Source: Clostridiaceae bacterium (lineage in GTDB: Bacteria; Bacillota; Clostridia; Saccharofermentanales; Saccharofermentanaceae). Taken from it: a DNA stretch of 64,000 bases. The notes beneath the pieces were generated by a model. It searched no databases and was not told the origin of the DNA. It saw only the letters and a list, made by a program, of their open reading frames with translations. Every line of letters begins with the position of its first letter. Positions within the stretch are counted from its first letter, which is position 1. Position numbers and translations under genes: made by a program. Shown in pieces: positions 26,518 to 34,353 of this stretch. The stretch spans positions 124,001 through 188,000 of the forward strand of contig JAAYCT010000024.1 of NCBI GenBank assembly GCA_012729635.1. Reading direction: 5' to 3'.

Positions 26518-27303
26518 TTACGGATATTGATTCGGAGTTTGAACGTGAACAAATCTCAGGTTCGGAAACTGCTGCTCCATATATTCATCCGGGAACCATC
26601 GATCCATGATGCGTTGGATTTCGAATCGCTGATCCGCACGAATTTGCCTTTCGGCCCACCTGCGAACCGCAAAAAAGGTTACGCCGAAATTGATAGCCAT
26701 GAAAATACACAAGATCGCCGTCACCGTCTTTCCGGCTTTTTTCGGAATTTTCAGAAGAATCAGCGAAATCGACGGAAGCATTATCTTAAGCCAAAAGACC
26801 GCAAGAATCCCCCAAAAGAAAGCATACTTCAAATTGGTTCTTCCCTGAATGTCCATCATATCGCTGTATTGCCATGAAACGGAGGAAAAAACAGATTCCT
26901 GAATGAGCGAACAGAAAAACTCAACCAAACAGCCGATCCCCATTCCCGCCGCAAGAACAGCCGGCAAAGGATGCTTCCGAAGGTAGTACAACACAACGGT
27001 CATCAGGACCCCGCCGACGCCGTAAACCATATTCAGGGGTGCCCAAACAAAGGTGGCGCGACTTTCAATTCTACCGGTCCGAATCAGCCAATATACGGTC
27101 TCGATTATTACCCCGAACGCTCCGGAAAAGAGAAAAATCCAAAAGAGCTTACAGGGACAAAGACCAATCGCAAAATGATTGCGATTGCGTTCGATGGCTT
27201 CGATGGCAGTGATGCTAAATGGATGCGGATATGATTTTTCCGGGCTGTTCTTCGCTATACATTTCATTTTCGAAAAGTGACCAAAGTCCCCCCTTATGAA
27301 CAT
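26518..27303 (-). CDS. CmpB-like (PF06541-type) membrane protein
   Basis: Integral membrane protein (up to 261 aa) of the family often labelled putative ABC transporter permease, with no transporter evidence. It has about five hydrophobic segments. Family marks are FLFSGAFGVIIETVYWL, the extracellular WAPLNMVYGVGGVLM, GCLVEFFCSLIQE and the WQYSDMMDIQGRTNLKYAFFWG segment. The start is unsure: neither the ATG at 27303 nor the one at 27267 has a good SD. A long hydrophilic C-terminus follows the last helix. The function is unknown. Confidence 0.7.
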   Translation of the reverse strand: MFIRGDFGHFSKMKCIAKNSPEKSYPHPFSITAIEAIERNRNHFAIGLCPCKLFWIFLFSGAFGVIIETVYWLIRTGRIESRATFVWAPLNMVYGVGGVLMTVVLYYLRKHPLPAVLAAGMGIGCLVEFFCSLIQESVFSSVSWQYSDMMDIQGRTNLKYAFFWGILAVFWLKIMLPSISLILLKIPKKAGKTVTAILCIFMAINFGVTFFAVRRWAERQIRADQRFEIQRIMDRWFPDEYMEQQFPNLRFVHVQTPNQYP

Positions 27304-27370: not shown

Positions 27371-27375
27371 TCTGG

Positions 27376-27449
27376 TATTCCCGAGCGGATTCGAACCGCT
27401 GGCCTACCGCTTAGGAGGCGGTCGCTCTATCCTTCTGAGCTACGGGAAC
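27376..27449 (-). tRNA. tRNA-Arg (anticodon CCU)
   Basis: Full cloverleaf on the minus strand. Acceptor GTTCCCG/CGGGAAT has a G-U first pair and discriminator A. The D stem is GCTC/GAGC. The anticodon stem is ACCGC/GCGGT with loop CTCCTAA, anticodon CCT. The T stem is AGCGG/CCGCT around TTCGAAT. CCA is not encoded. It reads AGG arginine codons. Confidence 0.97.
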
Positions 27450-27537: not shown

Positions 27538-28683
27538 TTATAGCAATTTTTCCGCCACACAAGAAAAAGAAGACAATACAATCAACGCAATTGCAATCAT
27601 CAGAAATATGAACGGAAGACCGTCGACCGAATTCGGACGATTCCCGAAAATCAGTTTTCGATTGAAAACGCGAATAAAGGACACCAATCCCGTGAGAAAA
27701 ACCCAAAAGAGCAGGATCAGGACTGTATACCGGGCGACCGACAGCAGGATTCCGGACGACATTTCCGCTTGCGAAAAAAAATAACTCAGCAAATAGAGCA
27801 CGATCCCAACCTGAGCGGGAAAAAGAAACGATTTGGGTATATCCTCGATTCCTTTTTCGCTTTTTTTGCGAGAAAAAAGGAAAAAGACAGCGGCGAATAC
27901 GGTATGAATCAGTACGACTGTCGGCGGAATCAAAACCGCCGATTGTCCGAAAACCCATAATCCGTAAGCGGCGGCATAGGATAACAGCCCGAAAAAAAGG
28001 ATGAACAGGAACAAAGAAAGCAAATACCCGAAGAAAGCTCTTTCCCTGTGGATTTCCGGAAACGGAACCCGATTCGCCCGGTCTTTCCCGTCTTTGGCAT
28101 ACACATCAAAAATATCCCGGTTCTTTTTTCTTAATATCAATCGGAAAAGGATGATAAGAGCACTTAATCCAAGTGCGGCGGACGAATCATTTTCTAAATA
28201 CGGAATACTTCTCTCGACACCGAGCCCGGTGTGAATATCCGCCAGTGTTCCCGAAGAACATATTTCTCTGACTGCGGAAAATAGAAGAATCGTCACCGTG
28301 AAGCCAACAAAAAGAAGCGCAACGGGAAGGGACCCTCTTTCTTTTTTTCGGTCGATCCGCTCCGAAACCATCGGAACGAGAAGAAGCGCATAGAGCACCT
28401 CAATCCAAATGCTCCCGTACTCTTGAGGACCCGGCGGGAAGAGTCGGGCATAAAAAACAGAGACAACGATTGCGGATCCGATCGCAAAAAACTCCGCAAT
28501 CAGGACCCGTGTAAAAAGCTTATATCCGACGGAGGCGAAGGAGAATCGAAACAGCAGGAGCAAACCGACTACCGCCGTGGTACGAATCGCTTCGTGAACC
28601 GATCCCGATCGAAAAATAATGATCAGTCCGAGACATAACAGAGTGTAAAAAGAAAAGGGTCGGGAGGATTTACTGTCTGTCAT
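27538..28683 (-). CDS. RnfE-RnfA-like fused membrane protein lacking iron-sulfur cysteines
   Basis: 381 aa with about ten hydrophobic segments. Residues 55-155 resemble RnfE: a segment like the RnfE C-terminal GLGFTLAL..REILGSGTL appears as FVGFTVTILLFSAVREICSSGTL at 125-147. The C-terminal residues 339-375 resemble the end of RnfA (RxLxxxxxPxxxxGLPIxxxxA). A hydrophilic loop at 185-215 joins the halves. In true RnfA and RnfE the conserved LG(L/I)CP and NC cysteines bind a membrane 2Fe-2S cluster; LLLVPM stands where LIxxNC is expected. It follows rnfG by four bases. The assignment is inferred from pattern and position and is the least certain of the cluster. Confidence 0.55.
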   Translation of the reverse strand: MTDSKSSRPFSFYTLLCLGLIIIFRSGSVHEAIRTTAVVGLLLLFRFSFASVGYKLFTRVLIAEFFAIGSAIVVSVFYARLFPPGPQEYGSIWIEVLYALLLVPMVSERIDRKKERGSLPVALLFVGFTVTILLFSAVREICSSGTLADIHTGLGVERSIPYLENDSSAALGLSALIILFRLILRKKNRDIFDVYAKDGKDRANRVPFPEIHRERAFFGYLLSLFLFILFFGLLSYAAAYGLWVFGQSAVLIPPTVVLIHTVFAAVFFLFSRKKSEKGIEDIPKSFLFPAQVGIVLYLLSYFFSQAEMSSGILLSVARYTVLILLFWVFLTGLVSFIRVFNRKLIFGNRPNSVDGLPFIFLMIAIALIVLSSFSCVAEKLL

Positions 28684-28687
28684 TCTG

Positions 28688-29947
28688 TCACGTCCCCCAC
28701 TTCATGTATTCCCGAAGAAATTTATAGGCCGTATTCACCGAACGGACCATAAGTATCGATATTTGAGGCTGGTCGGGCAACCCTTCGATTTGTGTTCGTA
28801 TTTCCGAAACGGGAAGTCCGTCAATACTGTCGGATAGAACCGGGTTATGGCCCGAATCGACTACTCCGTCCTCATATCCGATAACGGCGCCACCCGGTGT
28901 CGGGGTCGGAGTCATGGAAGGTGTCGGCTCGTATAAAACGGTTTCCTCGGGTTCCGTCTGATATGTATCGTCAGAAGAAGAATCCGTTTCCTCGGATGCG
29001 CCCATCCCCGCGGTCGAAGAGTGAAGTGTTTCGGTCTCTTCCGTCTCTACCGGAGCGGGTGTCGGTATCAGCGGCTTCGTTATATTTCTTTTCGAGTTTT
29101 CTATGCACAGAACGACAAGGTCGTAGAACATGTGTACATCCATCTTGACATCGGGGACGATTTCCGTTGTCCCGTCCGATTTGATTGCCAGTCTGACCGG
29201 GTCTTGTACCTCCAAAAGCTTATTGCGGATTGAATGAGCCTGTGCCGCCCAAATCGGCTGATTGTCTCCAAGTGAGAAAGCCCCGGACACCGACGCTTCG
29301 GAACGCATAGGTTCGCCCTCGTCGCGATGTATCGCATCCCATGCTACCGAAATGATTCGACCGGAGGATACGCGGATCTCAACGAAATCCTTGTATCCGT
29401 TCCGGTCATAATCTTCGGCCTCGGCATAAAATACCCCATCAATAAGACCCGGTATCGAGGGATACTCGTTTTGAGTGAGCACGTCGATCGACATCTGGGA
29501 AGACAGTGCAACGGGAATACGAACATCTTTGAGTTGATCGCACAAAACAAGAATGTTCGGGTCCGGCTCGGACGGCTCCGTCCCGTCCTCATCAATCATT
29601 CGAATTCGAGTGATTTTCTCGCCGTCGGGCGAAAAACCCATTCGGAAACAAAAAATCGTCCCGGCATCGTTCATCCGTACATCCATGATGAATCCGATGA
29701 TCTTCCCGGATTCGCTTTTCGCGAGATAAAAAGCGGTCACATCCGGATGATTCGAAAAAGTGCTTAAATCCACGGGGTCATACCGGGCTGCCGACAGAAA
29801 TCCTGCAAGCCTTTCACTGAGTACCGCTTGCTGCTCCCGATCCTTTTCGGAACGAACAACCCGCCCTACCGAAAGCAGAAGAAAAAGTGATGCCAATATG
29901 AAAATTACCGCTCTGAGCGCATACGAACGAAGATCCGCAAGTGTCAT
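28688..29947 (-). CDS. rnfG: RnfG-like protein with two FMN-domain repeats and lost flavin motifs
   Basis: 419 aa: one N-terminal membrane helix (11-29), then an extracytoplasmic part. Residues 55-165 correspond to the RnfG FMN domain, and 170-285 to a second FMN-binding-like domain (GVFYAEAEDYDRNGYKDFVEI). A Ser/Thr/Pro/Glu-rich stretch (about 290-375) and a C-terminal amphipathic part follow. The (S/T)GAT motif to which FMN is attached is replaced by LTQNEYPS (157-164) in domain one and by DVKMDVHMF (266-274) in domain two. ATG at 29947 overlaps the rnfD stop and has GGAGG. The extended linker and the second domain make it twice the usual RnfG length. Confidence 0.75.
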   Translation of the reverse strand: MTLADLRSYALRAVIFILASLFLLLSVGRVVRSEKDREQQAVLSERLAGFLSAARYDPVDLSTFSNHPDVTAFYLAKSESGKIIGFIMDVRMNDAGTIFCFRMGFSPDGEKITRIRMIDEDGTEPSEPDPNILVLCDQLKDVRIPVALSSQMSIDVLTQNEYPSIPGLIDGVFYAEAEDYDRNGYKDFVEIRVSSGRIISVAWDAIHRDEGEPMRSEASVSGAFSLGDNQPIWAAQAHSIRNKLLEVQDPVRLAIKSDGTTEIVPDVKMDVHMFYDLVVLCIENSKRNITKPLIPTPAPVETEETETLHSSTAGMGASEETDSSSDDTYQTEPEETVLYEPTPSMTPTPTPGGAVIGYEDGVVDSGHNPVLSDSIDGLPVSEIRTQIEGLPDQPQISILMVRSVNTAYKFLREYMKWGT

Positions 29948-30948
29948 GTCCGCACCTCCGTTTCGCCCTTCGGAATCGTCGCGATCGAATCCGGCAAACC
30001 TTTTCGTGAATACCAGTTTCCTTTTGCGAAAACGCGCGGGCGAATGTAGAACTCCAGCAACGGGGTCACTCCGTTCATAAGAAGAACCGGAGAAACAACG
30101 GCGAGGATGGTATGCCCGCATGAGATCAAAATCATCGCAAGTACACCGGTGCCGATTCCGAACACAACACGTCCGGTCGCGGAAGAAGGAATGGTAGTAA
30201 AATCACCGAAAGCAAATGCGGCGCAAAAAATGATCCCGGATGTAGCAATAAGACTCAACAATCCGTTTATGGAAGCGTCCTTTAAAAAGAAGACCCAGTA
30301 CCCCGTAACGATTGTGCCGAAATACGCAAGAGGAGCCTGAAGTCTTAAAATGCCGCGGATTGTCAAATAAACGGCACCCGCCACGGCAAACAAGATTCCG
30401 GTCAGCCCCATGGCGCCCGGATAAATGCCCGATAGAATCTCTAACCATCCGGAAGTCTCAGGAGCAACGGAGATCATTTCTCCGGGACCGAAAAAAAGAG
30501 TGTTCCATCGAAAAATTCCGGTTAGGGGCTGCACCAAGGTTTCTGTCGTCCCCGCAAATGCGATGGCCATAAAAGCACGGCCGGCAAATGCCGGATTGAA
30601 CAAATTGCACCCGACCCCTCCGAAAAACTGCTTCACGATTACGGAAGAAAAAAGGATGCCTGCCGATACCGCCCAAACTGAAACCGTCGGAGGCAAAAGA
30701 AGAACCAATATAAGTCCGCTGACTCCCCCGCTGAGATCCAGATAAACCTGTTCTCTGCGAACGAACCGTGCAAAAAAATGGTCCGTTAAAATATGCAATA
30801 ACGGCCCCCATAAGAGCAGAATCAAGGCACGTAACCCATAGCAATAGACAGCCGCGACACAACAGGGTAACAAAGCGATCATTACGTCCATGTAAATTTT
30901 GGGCGCGTTTTTTTGAATTCGAACATGGGGTCCGCTTCTGTCACTCAT
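29944..30948 (-). CDS. rnfD: RnfD-like membrane subunit
   Basis: 334 aa, about nine membrane helices. Recognised by RIQKNAPKIYMDVMIALLP at the N-terminus, the conserved KQFFGGVGCNLFNPAFAGRAFM loop, PGAMGLTG, and the C-terminal NGVTPLLEFYIRPRVF. In flavinylated RnfD an SGAT-type threonine precedes the PGxxG loop; here the segment reads SVAPETSGW and no SGATPL is seen. The later TDPVT motif reads GDFTT. The ATG at 30948 has AAAGGA upstream and overlaps the end of rnfC by eight bases. Confidence 0.85.
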   Translation of the reverse strand: MSDRSGPHVRIQKNAPKIYMDVMIALLPCCVAAVYCYGLRALILLLWGPLLHILTDHFFARFVRREQVYLDLSGGVSGLILVLLLPPTVSVWAVSAGILFSSVIVKQFFGGVGCNLFNPAFAGRAFMAIAFAGTTETLVQPLTGIFRWNTLFFGPGEMISVAPETSGWLEILSGIYPGAMGLTGILFAVAGAVYLTIRGILRLQAPLAYFGTIVTGYWVFFLKDASINGLLSLIATSGIIFCAAFAFGDFTTIPSSATGRVVFGIGTGVLAMILISCGHTILAVVSPVLLMNGVTPLLEFYIRPRVFAKGNWYSRKGLPDSIATIPKGETEVRT

Positions 30949-32284
30949 TCTCTTGTTCCTTTCGCAGTCGGACGGCGGCGCTCCCGATTCGCGCGGACAA
31001 ATCGATTCCGGCCGGGCACACATACGAGCACGCTCCGCAGGAGATACAGCTTCCGATATGTTCGTGTTGAAGCGCTTCCTCTTGATTCATTTGAATCAGT
31101 CGGTCACAAATATACGGCAAGAGACCGACCGGACATGCCTCAACACATGCCCCGCAGTGAATGCAAGCGGTTTTCGGCGGATCAAAATATCGAACCATCA
31201 CGATGCCCGTGGTTGTCTTGATGACCGGTGTGTCCCGATTCTCAAGCGCAATCCCGGTAATCGGTCCGCCCATGACGATCCGTCTGGAGGATGCGGCCCC
31301 CGGAACTCTTTCCAGTATCTCGGAAACCTTTGTCCCGATGGGAACCAGAATATTGTGTCCTCCTGCCGAATCATTCGAAATCGATATGACTCGGGACGTA
31401 AGGGGCTGATTGCGATCAACCATGTTCCACACGGCGGCGCAGGTGGAAGCATTAAAAACCACCGCTCCTACGGTTTCCTCTCCGCTACTCCCGACCGGAA
31501 GCTCCGTATCGTAGATTGCCTTGATCAGTAATTTCTCGTAACCCTGCGGATATCGGGATCGAAAAACACGAAGTCCCAGATCCCGGTCCGGAAAAACCTC
31601 GCGCTGTTTTTTAAAATTCCGGCGCAGCGCGTCCAATTCCGCTTCCCATTTGTCCAAAATACAAAAAATCACTCTCTTGGCCCGACAAAGACCTGCAAGA
31701 ACAAACGCCCCGCGGATGACGCGATCCGTCTGTTCACGAACCAGATGGATGTCCGAGGACAGGAACGGCTCGCTTTGACAAGCATTGACGAGAAGCGTTT
31801 CAACACCGATCCTTTCGGCTTTTCTGCATTTAGCCGCAGTTGGAATCCCGTTTCGGCCCATACCGACAACTCCGGAATAATCCAGAAGTTTCCATAGTTC
31901 TTCCCGCGTAAGGCGGTCGGGGTTGGCTCTTTTACGAATCGACGGATGATACTCCCGCTTCAGATCGTTTTGAATGATGATCGCACGACACTCGCTTCCG
32001 TGCGGCAGAAGAATCGTCTCAATACCGGTCACCGAGCCGGAAACGGAAGCATGAACCGGTGCGCACATTGCCGATGAAGGTTTCCCGACAATCTGTCCGA
32101 TTTTCACTTTTTCTCCGGGCAGAACCGTAGGAATCGCGGGTGTTCCGCGATGTTGCAGCATGGGCAAGACAATTTGTTTGGGCGTAAAAAGCTCAAGCAC
32201 CGGTTCTCTGGGGAAATCAGTATCCCCGGAAAACGCAAGCCCGTCCGGCGGAATCCAGCCTTTTTTGAACGAGTATTTCTTCAT
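30941..32284 (-). CDS. rnfC: RnfC-like subunit with intact 4Fe-4S sites and altered FMN/NADH motifs
   Basis: 447 aa. In Rnf, RnfC is the peripheral NADH-oxidising subunit. The N-terminal barrel (PMLQHRGTPAIPTVLPGEKV, APVHASVSGSV) is well kept. Two 4Fe-4S sites are complete: Cys374/377/380/384 and Cys413/416/419/423. The NuoF-like signature GLGGAGFPT is GMGRNGIPT (141-149), and NGAECEP is NACQSEP (167-173), so FMN and NADH binding as in standard RnfC is doubtful. First gene of the cluster, 22 bases after sigA. Confidence 0.9.
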   Translation of the reverse strand: MKKYSFKKGWIPPDGLAFSGDTDFPREPVLELFTPKQIVLPMLQHRGTPAIPTVLPGEKVKIGQIVGKPSSAMCAPVHASVSGSVTGIETILLPHGSECRAIIIQNDLKREYHPSIRKRANPDRLTREELWKLLDYSGVVGMGRNGIPTAAKCRKAERIGVETLLVNACQSEPFLSSDIHLVREQTDRVIRGAFVLAGLCRAKRVIFCILDKWEAELDALRRNFKKQREVFPDRDLGLRVFRSRYPQGYEKLLIKAIYDTELPVGSSGEETVGAVVFNASTCAAVWNMVDRNQPLTSRVISISNDSAGGHNILVPIGTKVSEILERVPGAASSRRIVMGGPITGIALENRDTPVIKTTTGIVMVRYFDPPKTACIHCGACVEACPVGLLPYICDRLIQMNQEEALQHEHIGSCISCGACSYVCPAGIDLSARIGSAAVRLRKEQENE

Positions 32285-32306: not shown

Positions 32307-33374
32307 TCAATCGATGTAATCCTTCAGTTTCTTACTGCGACTCGGATGACGGAGCTTCCGGAGAGCCTTGGCTTCAATCTGACGTATGCGCTCACGCGTG
32401 ACATTAAACTCACGGCCCACCTCTTCGAGCGTACGCTGTCTTCCGTCGTCCAAACCGAATCGCAGCCGCAGCACCTTTTCTTCTCTGGGTGTCAGTCCGC
32501 CCATCGCCTCAAGGAGTTGCTCCTTGAGCAAAGTATACGCGACTTGATCGGCCGGTGACAATGCGTCTTCGTCCGGAATAAAATCCCCCAAATGACTGTC
32601 TTCTTCTTCTCCGATCGGTTTTTCGAGAGAAACAGGCTCCTGAGATATCTTCTGGATCTCCCGGACCTTTTCGACCGGAAGACCCATCTCCTCGGCAATT
32701 TCCTCGACCTCAGGCTCCCTGCCGAGCTCCTGAATCAGCGAGCGCTGAACACGGACCAGACGATTAATCGTTTCCACCATATGAACCGGGATCCGGATGG
32801 TTCTTGCCTGATCCGCGATTGCACGCGTAATCGCCTGACGGATCCACCAGGTAGCATAGGTGCTGAACTTAAAGCCCTTCGAGTGATCAAATTTATCCAC
32901 TGCTTTTATGAGTCCGAGGTTTCCCTCTTGAATCAGATCCAAAAACTGCATTCCTCTCCCGAGGTATCTTTTTGCAATCGATACGACCAATCGAAGGTTT
33001 GCTTCGATCAGCATGTCCTTTGCATCCTGGTCTCCCTCAAGCATTCTTTTCGCAAGATCCTGCTCCTGCTCAGCAACCAGAAGAGGCACTTTCCCGATTT
33101 CCTTCAGGTACATCCGAACCGGATCATCCATGCCGATTCCCTCACCGATCGAATCGTTCAGATCGACTTCGGAAAGGTTCTCTTCCTCGACATTGGTCTC
33201 CGGGATGATTTCAACGCCCTTTGCTTCGAGCGTATCGAATATTTTCTCGGCAACGTCCGGATCGACGTCGTTTTTTTCAATAATCGACATCATATCCTTG
33301 TAGCTTATTCCGTTGTTGTTCGCCGCCGCTCTTTTCTCGATTTCCTGAAGAATGGAACGAAAGTCGTTTGCCAT
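32307..33374 (-). CDS. sigA: Primary RNA polymerase sigma factor
   Basis: Housekeeping sigma-70 (355 aa, the short Firmicutes form without the large non-conserved region). Region 1.1 remnant at the N-terminus, region 1.2 [16 protein letters not shown], region 2 with [40 protein letters not shown]-type core, region 3, and region 4.2 [33 protein letters not shown] at 33374 follows GGGAGG. dnaG is not beside it in the window. The Rnf-like genes follow closely and may share its transcript. Confidence 0.98.
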
Positions 33375-33436
33375 CAATAATCCTCCCATGCCATGCATGT
33401 GCGTCCCTAAAGCCCGGTACGTATTTTTTCGAAAAA

Positions 33437-34201
33437 CTATGCGACGGGCTCTGTGTACACTTGGCTGCTCATCTGTGTCTGTTCGGCTCCGTCCGCAGCA
33501 ATCACCGCGAATGTTCCGTTTCGAGCGATAATCTCCAGACGGAGACCTCCGTAATAAAGCCGGGTGTCCGAGGAATCATAGCCGTACTCATCGGCCCTGA
33601 TTTTCGCGAATCCCTCGTAGAGGTCGCCGAGCTTGTTTTCGTCGATTTCATCCGATGTTACCACAATTAAGTTGTTGTTGGTCTGACCCGATATGGAGTA
33701 GCCCATCGGGTATCCCTCTCTTTTCTCCGTGTTCACGGAAATACCCGCATCGGAAAACACGGTTTCGATCGATAGAGAAATATCCTTTTTGTGTCCCGTA
33801 CGGATTACATATAGAGGAAGAAATATCGTAAAAACCAAAAAAACAAAACCGAATGCAATCGCTGCGATTGCAAGAAGTGTTTTTTTCGGTGCCTTGATAT
33901 CGTCCGCGGAGACTTCGTAGGGGTTCTTCTCCTTCTTTTCAGCCTTTGCCAAGGACTCCGCCTGCTTAACCGCAACGGGTACCGGATCCGGGAATACCGG
34001 AACGGAGGTGTATCGTCTTGTCGAGTCCCGCTTCGGTTGCGGCTCGTTCGGGAACGTATAGTCCCGGGGATTTTTTGCAATCTCAACGGCTTCCATCGTA
34101 GGGAATACACAGTCGCAAAACAGACACTCACACATCGGATCTCGGTCGTCAGCCACAATCAAAGAACCGCAATTCTTGCAGATACCGTTTACAGAGGCCA
34201 T
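33437..34201 (-). CDS. Zinc-ribbon membrane protein of unknown function
   Basis: 254 aa. The N-terminus carries a zinc ribbon (CKNC at 8-11 and CECLFCDC about 17 residues later). A Pro- and Lys-rich linker follows, then one membrane helix near 105-130 ([26 protein letters not shown]) and an extracytoplasmic domain of about 115 residues. I know no family for that domain. The ATG at 34201 has AAAGGTGG upstream. It lies 62 bases before sigA on the same strand and diverges from tadA. Confidence 0.75.
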
Positions 34202-34353
34202 CAGGGGAACCACCTTTATCATAATTACCTACGATATCGGCAAAATTCCACACGTAGGCAGAGTAATTATATACGTTCACCCTCGAAAGTGCAAACAAAA
34301 TATCTGTCCTCGTTTATTCCTTTTTTCCCTCGCGCAAAAATCAATAATCGTGA

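Follow-up and report, generated by a model that had tools for sequence, protein, structure and literature searches.

An old paralogue of the rnf operon, fixed behind sigA, lacks the transmembrane redox sites of Rnf

What remains of an Rnf complex from which most redox sites have disappeared, and what could it still do? This question is raised by a compact operon in a 64,000-nucleotide stretch of a Clostridiaceae bacterium genome (Saccharofermentanaceae; assembly GCA_012729635.1, contig JAAYCT010000024.1, positions 124,001 to 188,000), which is referred to as the window. Directly behind the primary sigma factor gene sigA, it encodes homologues of RnfC, RnfD, RnfG, RnfE and RnfA in one operon, the last two as a fusion. 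The genes are termed rnfC2, rnfD2, rnfG2 and rnf(E-A)2, the operon rnf2, and the products RnfC2, RnfD2, RnfG2 and E-A2; all features described here lie on the minus strand. It derives from an old duplication of the rnfCDGEA core, lacks rnfB and is fixed behind sigA across this family of anaerobic bacteria. A preceding description made from the DNA alone (the sequence-only reading) had proposed a complex stripped of RnfB and of most redox sites. The losses that it listed are confirmed below, while the riboflavin ligands of RnfD, all three of which are present in 47/58 genomes, were overlooked.

The locus was compared across a family sample of 58 loci from five genera, of which three are truncated by a contig end; each site tally covers 57-58 genomes. 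The block sigA-rnfC2-rnfD2-rnfG2-rnf(E-A)2 is present in 58/58 loci in the same order, and the rnf2 genes overlap (stop/start) or nearly abut. Among close relatives, dN/dS values range from about 0.02 to 0.19 (rnfC2, 0.02-0.08; rnfD2, 0.03-0.15; rnfG2, 0.06-0.13; rnf(E-A)2, 0.07-0.19). The operon is under purifying selection, as had been concluded from its compact and overlapping gene order. The open reading frames (ORFs) proposed for the window proved to be real in an ORF check, and sequencing errors as a source of the altered motifs are excluded by the recurrence of the same features in 57-58 genomes.

RnfC2 (30941..32284; TIGR01945, E 1e-95, above the family cut-off) is the most constrained subunit, with dN/dS mostly at 0.02-0.05. 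Both [4Fe-4S] sites, already recognized in the sequence-only reading, are intact in the window (C374/377/380/384 and C413/416/419/423), and the eight cluster cysteines are invariant in 57/57 genomes. The positions that contact nicotinamide adenine dinucleotide, NAD(H), are changed. The RnfC motif GLGGA[AG]FPT is converted to GMG[GR][EDN]G, and its Phe, whose counterpart in complex I stacks on the adenine of NADH, is replaced in 56/57 genomes, mostly by Ile or Val. The ECEP motif, whose Glu is equivalent by motif to NuoF E95, became QSEP-like; the Glu is lost in all 57 genomes (Gln in 56, Ser in the other). The window reads GMGRNGIPT and QSEP at these positions. Most of the Gly loop is retained, together with the Lys and Asn of the site for flavin mononucleotide (FMN) and NAD(H). 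The proposed alteration of the RnfC flavin and NADH signatures is borne out at the NAD(H) contacts.

RnfD2 (29944..30957; PF03116, E 2e-59; start codon uncertain) has lost its ATP attachment motif for FMN in 58/58 genomes, and the invariant Glu near the RnfD attachment motif (position 209) is missing from nearly all homologues. The non-covalent flavin site is mostly preserved. Riboflavin is bound by N200, N203 and D346 in NqrB (PMC9325719; PMC10643135), and N123 and D249 of A. woodii RnfD are essential (PMC11889175). The RnfD2 residues matching the three NqrB ligands and the A. woodii pair are Asn in 50/58, Asn in 53/58 and Asp in 55/58 genomes. The 47 genomes with the full Asn/Asn/Asp triad include the window, in which the ligands are formed by GxNxxNPA and the Asp of the FATD region. 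RnfD2 matches PF03116 alone, with no PF00175 NAD-binding fusion, and its alignment to NqrB is limited to the transmembrane (TM) core.

RnfG2 (28688..29947; start taken as MTLADL) is composed of a TM helix, an RnfG-like N-terminal part, an inserted domain, a Pro/Thr-rich linker and a conserved C terminus. Like the product of rnf(E-A)2, it has no Pfam or NCBIfam match above cut-off. The RnfG-like part was assigned to canonical RnfG by profile comparison (hhalign, 99.8%). The loss of the FMN motif of RnfG, noted in the sequence-only reading, holds throughout: the flavinylation motif Dxx[ST]xA[ST] is found in the RnfG2 domains of 0/58 homologues, and DS(I/V)DG(L/I)P stands at the C terminus where canonical RnfG has DxxSGAT. 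One genome has TSGAT, located in the linker. That reading had overlooked the inserted domain; its match to PDB 2KZX (E 4e-27) is stronger than that to 3O6U. The GVT of this domain was also considered as a site of covalent FMN, which is unlikely: genus g2, where ApbE is mostly missing, keeps the Thr, and the ApbE-bearing genera g1 and g5 have lost it. A single-sequence AlphaFold model of RnfG2 was poor (pLDDT 40).

The last gene, rnf(E-A)2 (27538..28683), encodes a membrane protein of 381 aa with 11 predicted TM helices in the window; its positive charges lie on the same side of the membrane as the N terminus. Searches of Pfam, NCBIfam and PDB sequences gave nothing useful, and the protein was identified only by profile-profile comparison with decoys. 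With a profile of 58 homologues, the N-terminal half matches RnfE (score 45) and the C-terminal half RnfA (score 38), compared to about 20 or less for reversed decoys; each half matches just its own partner in hhalign. The gene had been recognized as related to rnfE or rnfA, but not as a single fusion of both. The C-terminal half aligns to RnfA from residue 26 onward, and the first RnfA helix (TM1), which leads into one of the cluster cysteines, was apparently dropped when the genes fused. No cysteine is conserved in E-A2: the best column holds Cys in 21/58 sequences, whereas four RnfA/RnfE columns have it in 95% or more, and the proposed alteration of the membrane cysteines is borne out. The single-sequence AlphaFold model was again poor (pLDDT 49).

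Neither an RnfB gene, as already noted, nor an NqrF-like gene is present in the sigA-rnf2 block. The sequence-only reading had suggested a search for a normal rnfCDGEAB and for apbE, and both are present elsewhere in the window genome: a complete canonical rnfCDGEAB with normal motifs, located on contig C2, and an apbE. Hence, rnf2 is a paralogue. An RnfC match above the family cut-off is found in 58/58 family genomes, and in the RnfC tree all RnfC2 sequences form one clade (100/99), separate from one Pseudomonadota sequence and from the order's canonical RnfC. A scan with a single protein across genome contigs returned one canonical Rnf-like locus, in a Pseudomonadota genome. As an observation on the canonical genes, RnfE of the family has a seemingly unusual Cys-rich tail (CSSCGACSIC at L033:8295-9137; CSSCGACP at L050:1688-2485).

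A separate set of rnfA, rnfE and rnfB that completes the complex was one way in which the proposed stripping could have been refuted. Such a set exists, and most genomes outside genus g2 have canonical Rnf and ApbE, with matches covering the RnfB N-terminal domain at the canonical locus. Genus g2, however, of which 28 genomes were sampled, many at least 97% complete, retains rnf2 with canonical RnfA/E in 0/28 and ApbE in 1/28 genomes. The matches listed for g2 do not include the N-terminal domain of RnfB and span the ferredoxin-like part only. The retention of rnf2 without RnfA/E and nearly without ApbE indicates that the operon is independent of canonical Rnf and of FMN transfer. With the attachment motif lost in all genomes as well, attachment of FMN by ApbE, another possible refutation, appears unlikely. 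The sole apbE of g2 (genome G014, L210:3765-6307) lies beside a gene for a NapH-like membrane protein, away from the variant cluster.

In Rnf, electrons pass from RnfB via the membrane [2Fe-2S] cluster, the FMN of RnfG, the FMN of RnfD, riboflavin, the two [4Fe-4S] clusters of RnfC and the FMN of RnfC to NAD+ (PMC9588780; PMC11889175). Compared to the Rnf complexes of A. woodii (9ERI-9ERL) and C. tetanomorphum (7ZC6), rnf2 shares the C, D and G homologues, the order rnfCDGEA with E and A fused, the two [4Fe-4S] clusters of RnfC and the mostly kept riboflavin ligands of RnfD. It differs by the absence of RnfB, of the membrane cysteines and of the Thr for covalent FMN in RnfD and RnfG, and further by the E-A fusion apparently without RnfA TM1, the replaced NAD(H) contacts of RnfC and the extra RnfG domain. 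The transmembrane electron route of Rnf is gone, since RnfB, the membrane [2Fe-2S] cysteines and the FMN Thr of RnfG and RnfD are all lost. In A. woodii, mutation of the residues that hold the FMN of RnfG, the membrane cluster or riboflavin abolished activity (PMC11889175), so that Rnf activity is not expected for rnf2. By subunit homology the complex belongs to the Rnf/Nqr lineage, and by its cofactors it fails as Rnf; as already proposed, it is probably not a standard ferredoxin:NAD oxidoreductase, with RnfB, membrane cysteines, FMN sites and NAD(H) contacts lost.

Nor is rnf2 an Nqr or a two-gene Nqr/Rnf-like system. The proposed origin of Nqr by rnf duplication, loss of rnfB and loss of the clusters from RnfC/NqrA (PMC4014512) resembles rnf2 in the duplication, in the loss of rnfB and in that one subunit lost redox sites. 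Na+-NQR (NqrA-F), in contrast, retained the membrane cofactors but not the RnfC/NqrA clusters, whereas rnf2 shows the reverse, with membrane cofactors mostly lost; moreover, it lacks NqrF, and RnfC2 is not free of Fe-S clusters but holds both. In the two-gene systems (Meheust 2021; PMC10979944), the NqrB/RnfD-like subunit similarly no longer has a flavinylation Thr of its own. These systems differ in their PF00175 NAD-binding fusion, in the flavinylated RnfG-like partner and in their discovery via a link to ApbE, while rnf2 has RnfC and an RnfG2 without attachment motif.

A related cluster with the order apbE-rnfC'-D'-G'-E'-A' occurs in g261, a genus of family f3 (L172:4044-10562; L173:189-4356). 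Its RnfC' keeps the Fe-S sites but not the FMN-loop motif, and RnfG' carries inserted 2KZX-type domains (two in L172). In contrast to rnf2, apbE adjoins the cluster, SGAT is kept at the C terminus of RnfG', and E' and A' are separate, both without the usual Cys motifs. Two RnfC' sequences join the RnfC2 side of the tree on a long branch; the tree is midpoint-rooted, and long branches and root leave the exact place of the g261 cluster unsure. This cluster seems to represent a partial stage in the process that stripped rnf2. The history of rnf2 is best read as a duplication of rnf, followed by loss of rnfB and stripping of the redox sites, which suggests that an energy-conserving pump was turned into something else. 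No description of the sigA-rnf2 operon was found in the literature searched.

As to function, the sequence-only reading had offered transport, a scaffold or a shorter electron path through the RnfC clusters. The reading we tentatively favor is that rnf2 forms a redox-responsive membrane assembly that senses redox state or gates transport. The cytoplasmic branch alone, from the RnfC2 clusters to the riboflavin of RnfD2, may still accept electrons, with no known route across the membrane. Soluble reductants such as ferredoxin would set the redox state of the clusters and, where present, of riboflavin. This state could shift RnfD2, which presumably has the fold of ammonium/urea transporters, to which RnfD is related (PMC12174285), together with the fused E-A alternating-access unit, and the shift would gate a flux or signal to the enlarged extracellular RnfG2. 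Neither NAD+ reduction nor ion pumping by the Rnf cycle would be expected. Several points speak against this. The riboflavin triad is incomplete in 11/58 genomes, which leaves the Fe-S sites alone as universal; the alternating-access fold of E-A2 is assumed to be retained, given its strong divergence; FMN may still bind RnfC2 non-covalently through the retained Gly loop, Lys and Asn, so that the complex may have some activity as an oxidoreductase with a different partner.

Non-covalent FMN would fit an alternative in which RnfC2-RnfD2 moves electrons between a soluble carrier, via this FMN or the clusters, and riboflavin, and from there to a lipid-soluble or soluble acceptor on the cytoplasmic side, much as NqrB reduces quinone, with RnfG2 and E-A2 mainly structural. 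Invariant Fe-S sites, mostly kept riboflavin ligands and the conserved FMN-loop glycines, Lys and Asn agree with it, and the riboflavin of NqrB is a precedent for a last donor (PMC12174285). The helices of the NqrB quinone pocket, though, are described as absent from RnfD, and RnfD2 aligns to NqrB over the TM core only; some species lost the riboflavin residues yet keep the operon, and an enlarged, well-conserved RnfG2 is left unexplained. Such a short path is given clearly less weight than the favored reading. Slightly less probable again is a transporter or scaffold free of redox chemistry, with RnfD2 as a conduit for solutes or ions, or the complex as a holder of the extracellular domain, and with purely structural Fe-S clusters. 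The loss of every transmembrane electron site would be explained, the kinship of the RnfD fold to ammonium/urea transporters fits, and NqrA is an RnfC-type subunit that became cofactor-free (PMC4014512). But NqrA shed the clusters it did not need, while RnfC2 keeps all eight cysteines as the most constrained subunit, and most species keep the riboflavin ligands.

A complex still working as Rnf, with FMN at non-standard sites or as a hybrid that borrows canonical RnfA/E/B, is given very little weight. Partners would be at hand in most genomes outside g2, and the inserted domain of RnfG2 keeps its GVT in most species; yet g2 retains the variant with next to none of these partners, genera with ApbE (g1, g5) have lost the Thr of this domain while g2 keeps it, and the NAD(H)-contacting Phe and Glu of RnfC2 are replaced in nearly all genomes. 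The weak similarity of the last two genes and the many lost motifs could also point to a decaying or mis-assembled rnf copy, an idea with practically no chance of being right that is refuted by ORFs intact across five genera (57-58 genomes), constant order and low dN/dS.

If the redox-responsive reading holds, rnf2 would possibly, though this goes further and is somewhat more doubtful, represent a third outcome of evolution in the Rnf lineage, next to Rnf and Nqr: a complex without transmembrane electrons, encoded immediately behind the primary sigma factor, in which a cytoplasmic Fe-S redox state, mostly together with riboflavin, gates a transporter-fold core or signals to a receptor-like subunit outside the cell. 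Rnf and Nqr are currently dissected to identify the cofactor steps that drive ion movement. In rnf2, the transmembrane electron path has apparently been removed by nature while the frame is selected for, across many species, including some without canonical Rnf. The operon offers a natural test of what the Rnf frame does without electrons, and it may be a counterpart to the duplicated rnf operon from which Nqr is proposed to have arisen. An annotation as RnfC or RnfD does not imply energy conservation by ferredoxin:NAD+ oxidoreduction, and for g2 such a conclusion is probably wrong.

An order-wide search returned full-length RnfG2 from almost every member of family f1 and from none of the order's other families, and the class sample yielded none outside f1. 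One assembly (G053) contains two copies of the variant cluster, on contigs C28 and C145, perhaps from mixed strains.

The order in the window is h261, sigA, rnfC2, rnfD2, rnfG2, rnf(E-A)2 and tRNA-Arg. The sigA (rpoD) gene (32307..33398; NCBIfam NF006666, E 1e-173) may have its real start codon further downstream. Upstream of it, h261 (33437..34222) encodes a protein with a six-Cys zinc-ribbon-like N terminus and a single TM helix, and this position is kept in the family. A functional link of h261 to rnf2 was considered and dropped, as homologues in family f4 are located away from sigA; h261 is probably only a neighbor. One of these homologues (L209:4328-5119) is found near tadA and addA without sigA, and sigA-rnf2 therefore seems to have been inserted beside an older neighborhood. 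Just 3' of the operon, a tRNA-Arg (CCT) gene is located at 27373..27449. Past the tRNA, positions 26518-27303 encode a membrane protein that is ~60% identical to its counterpart at the same place in L035.

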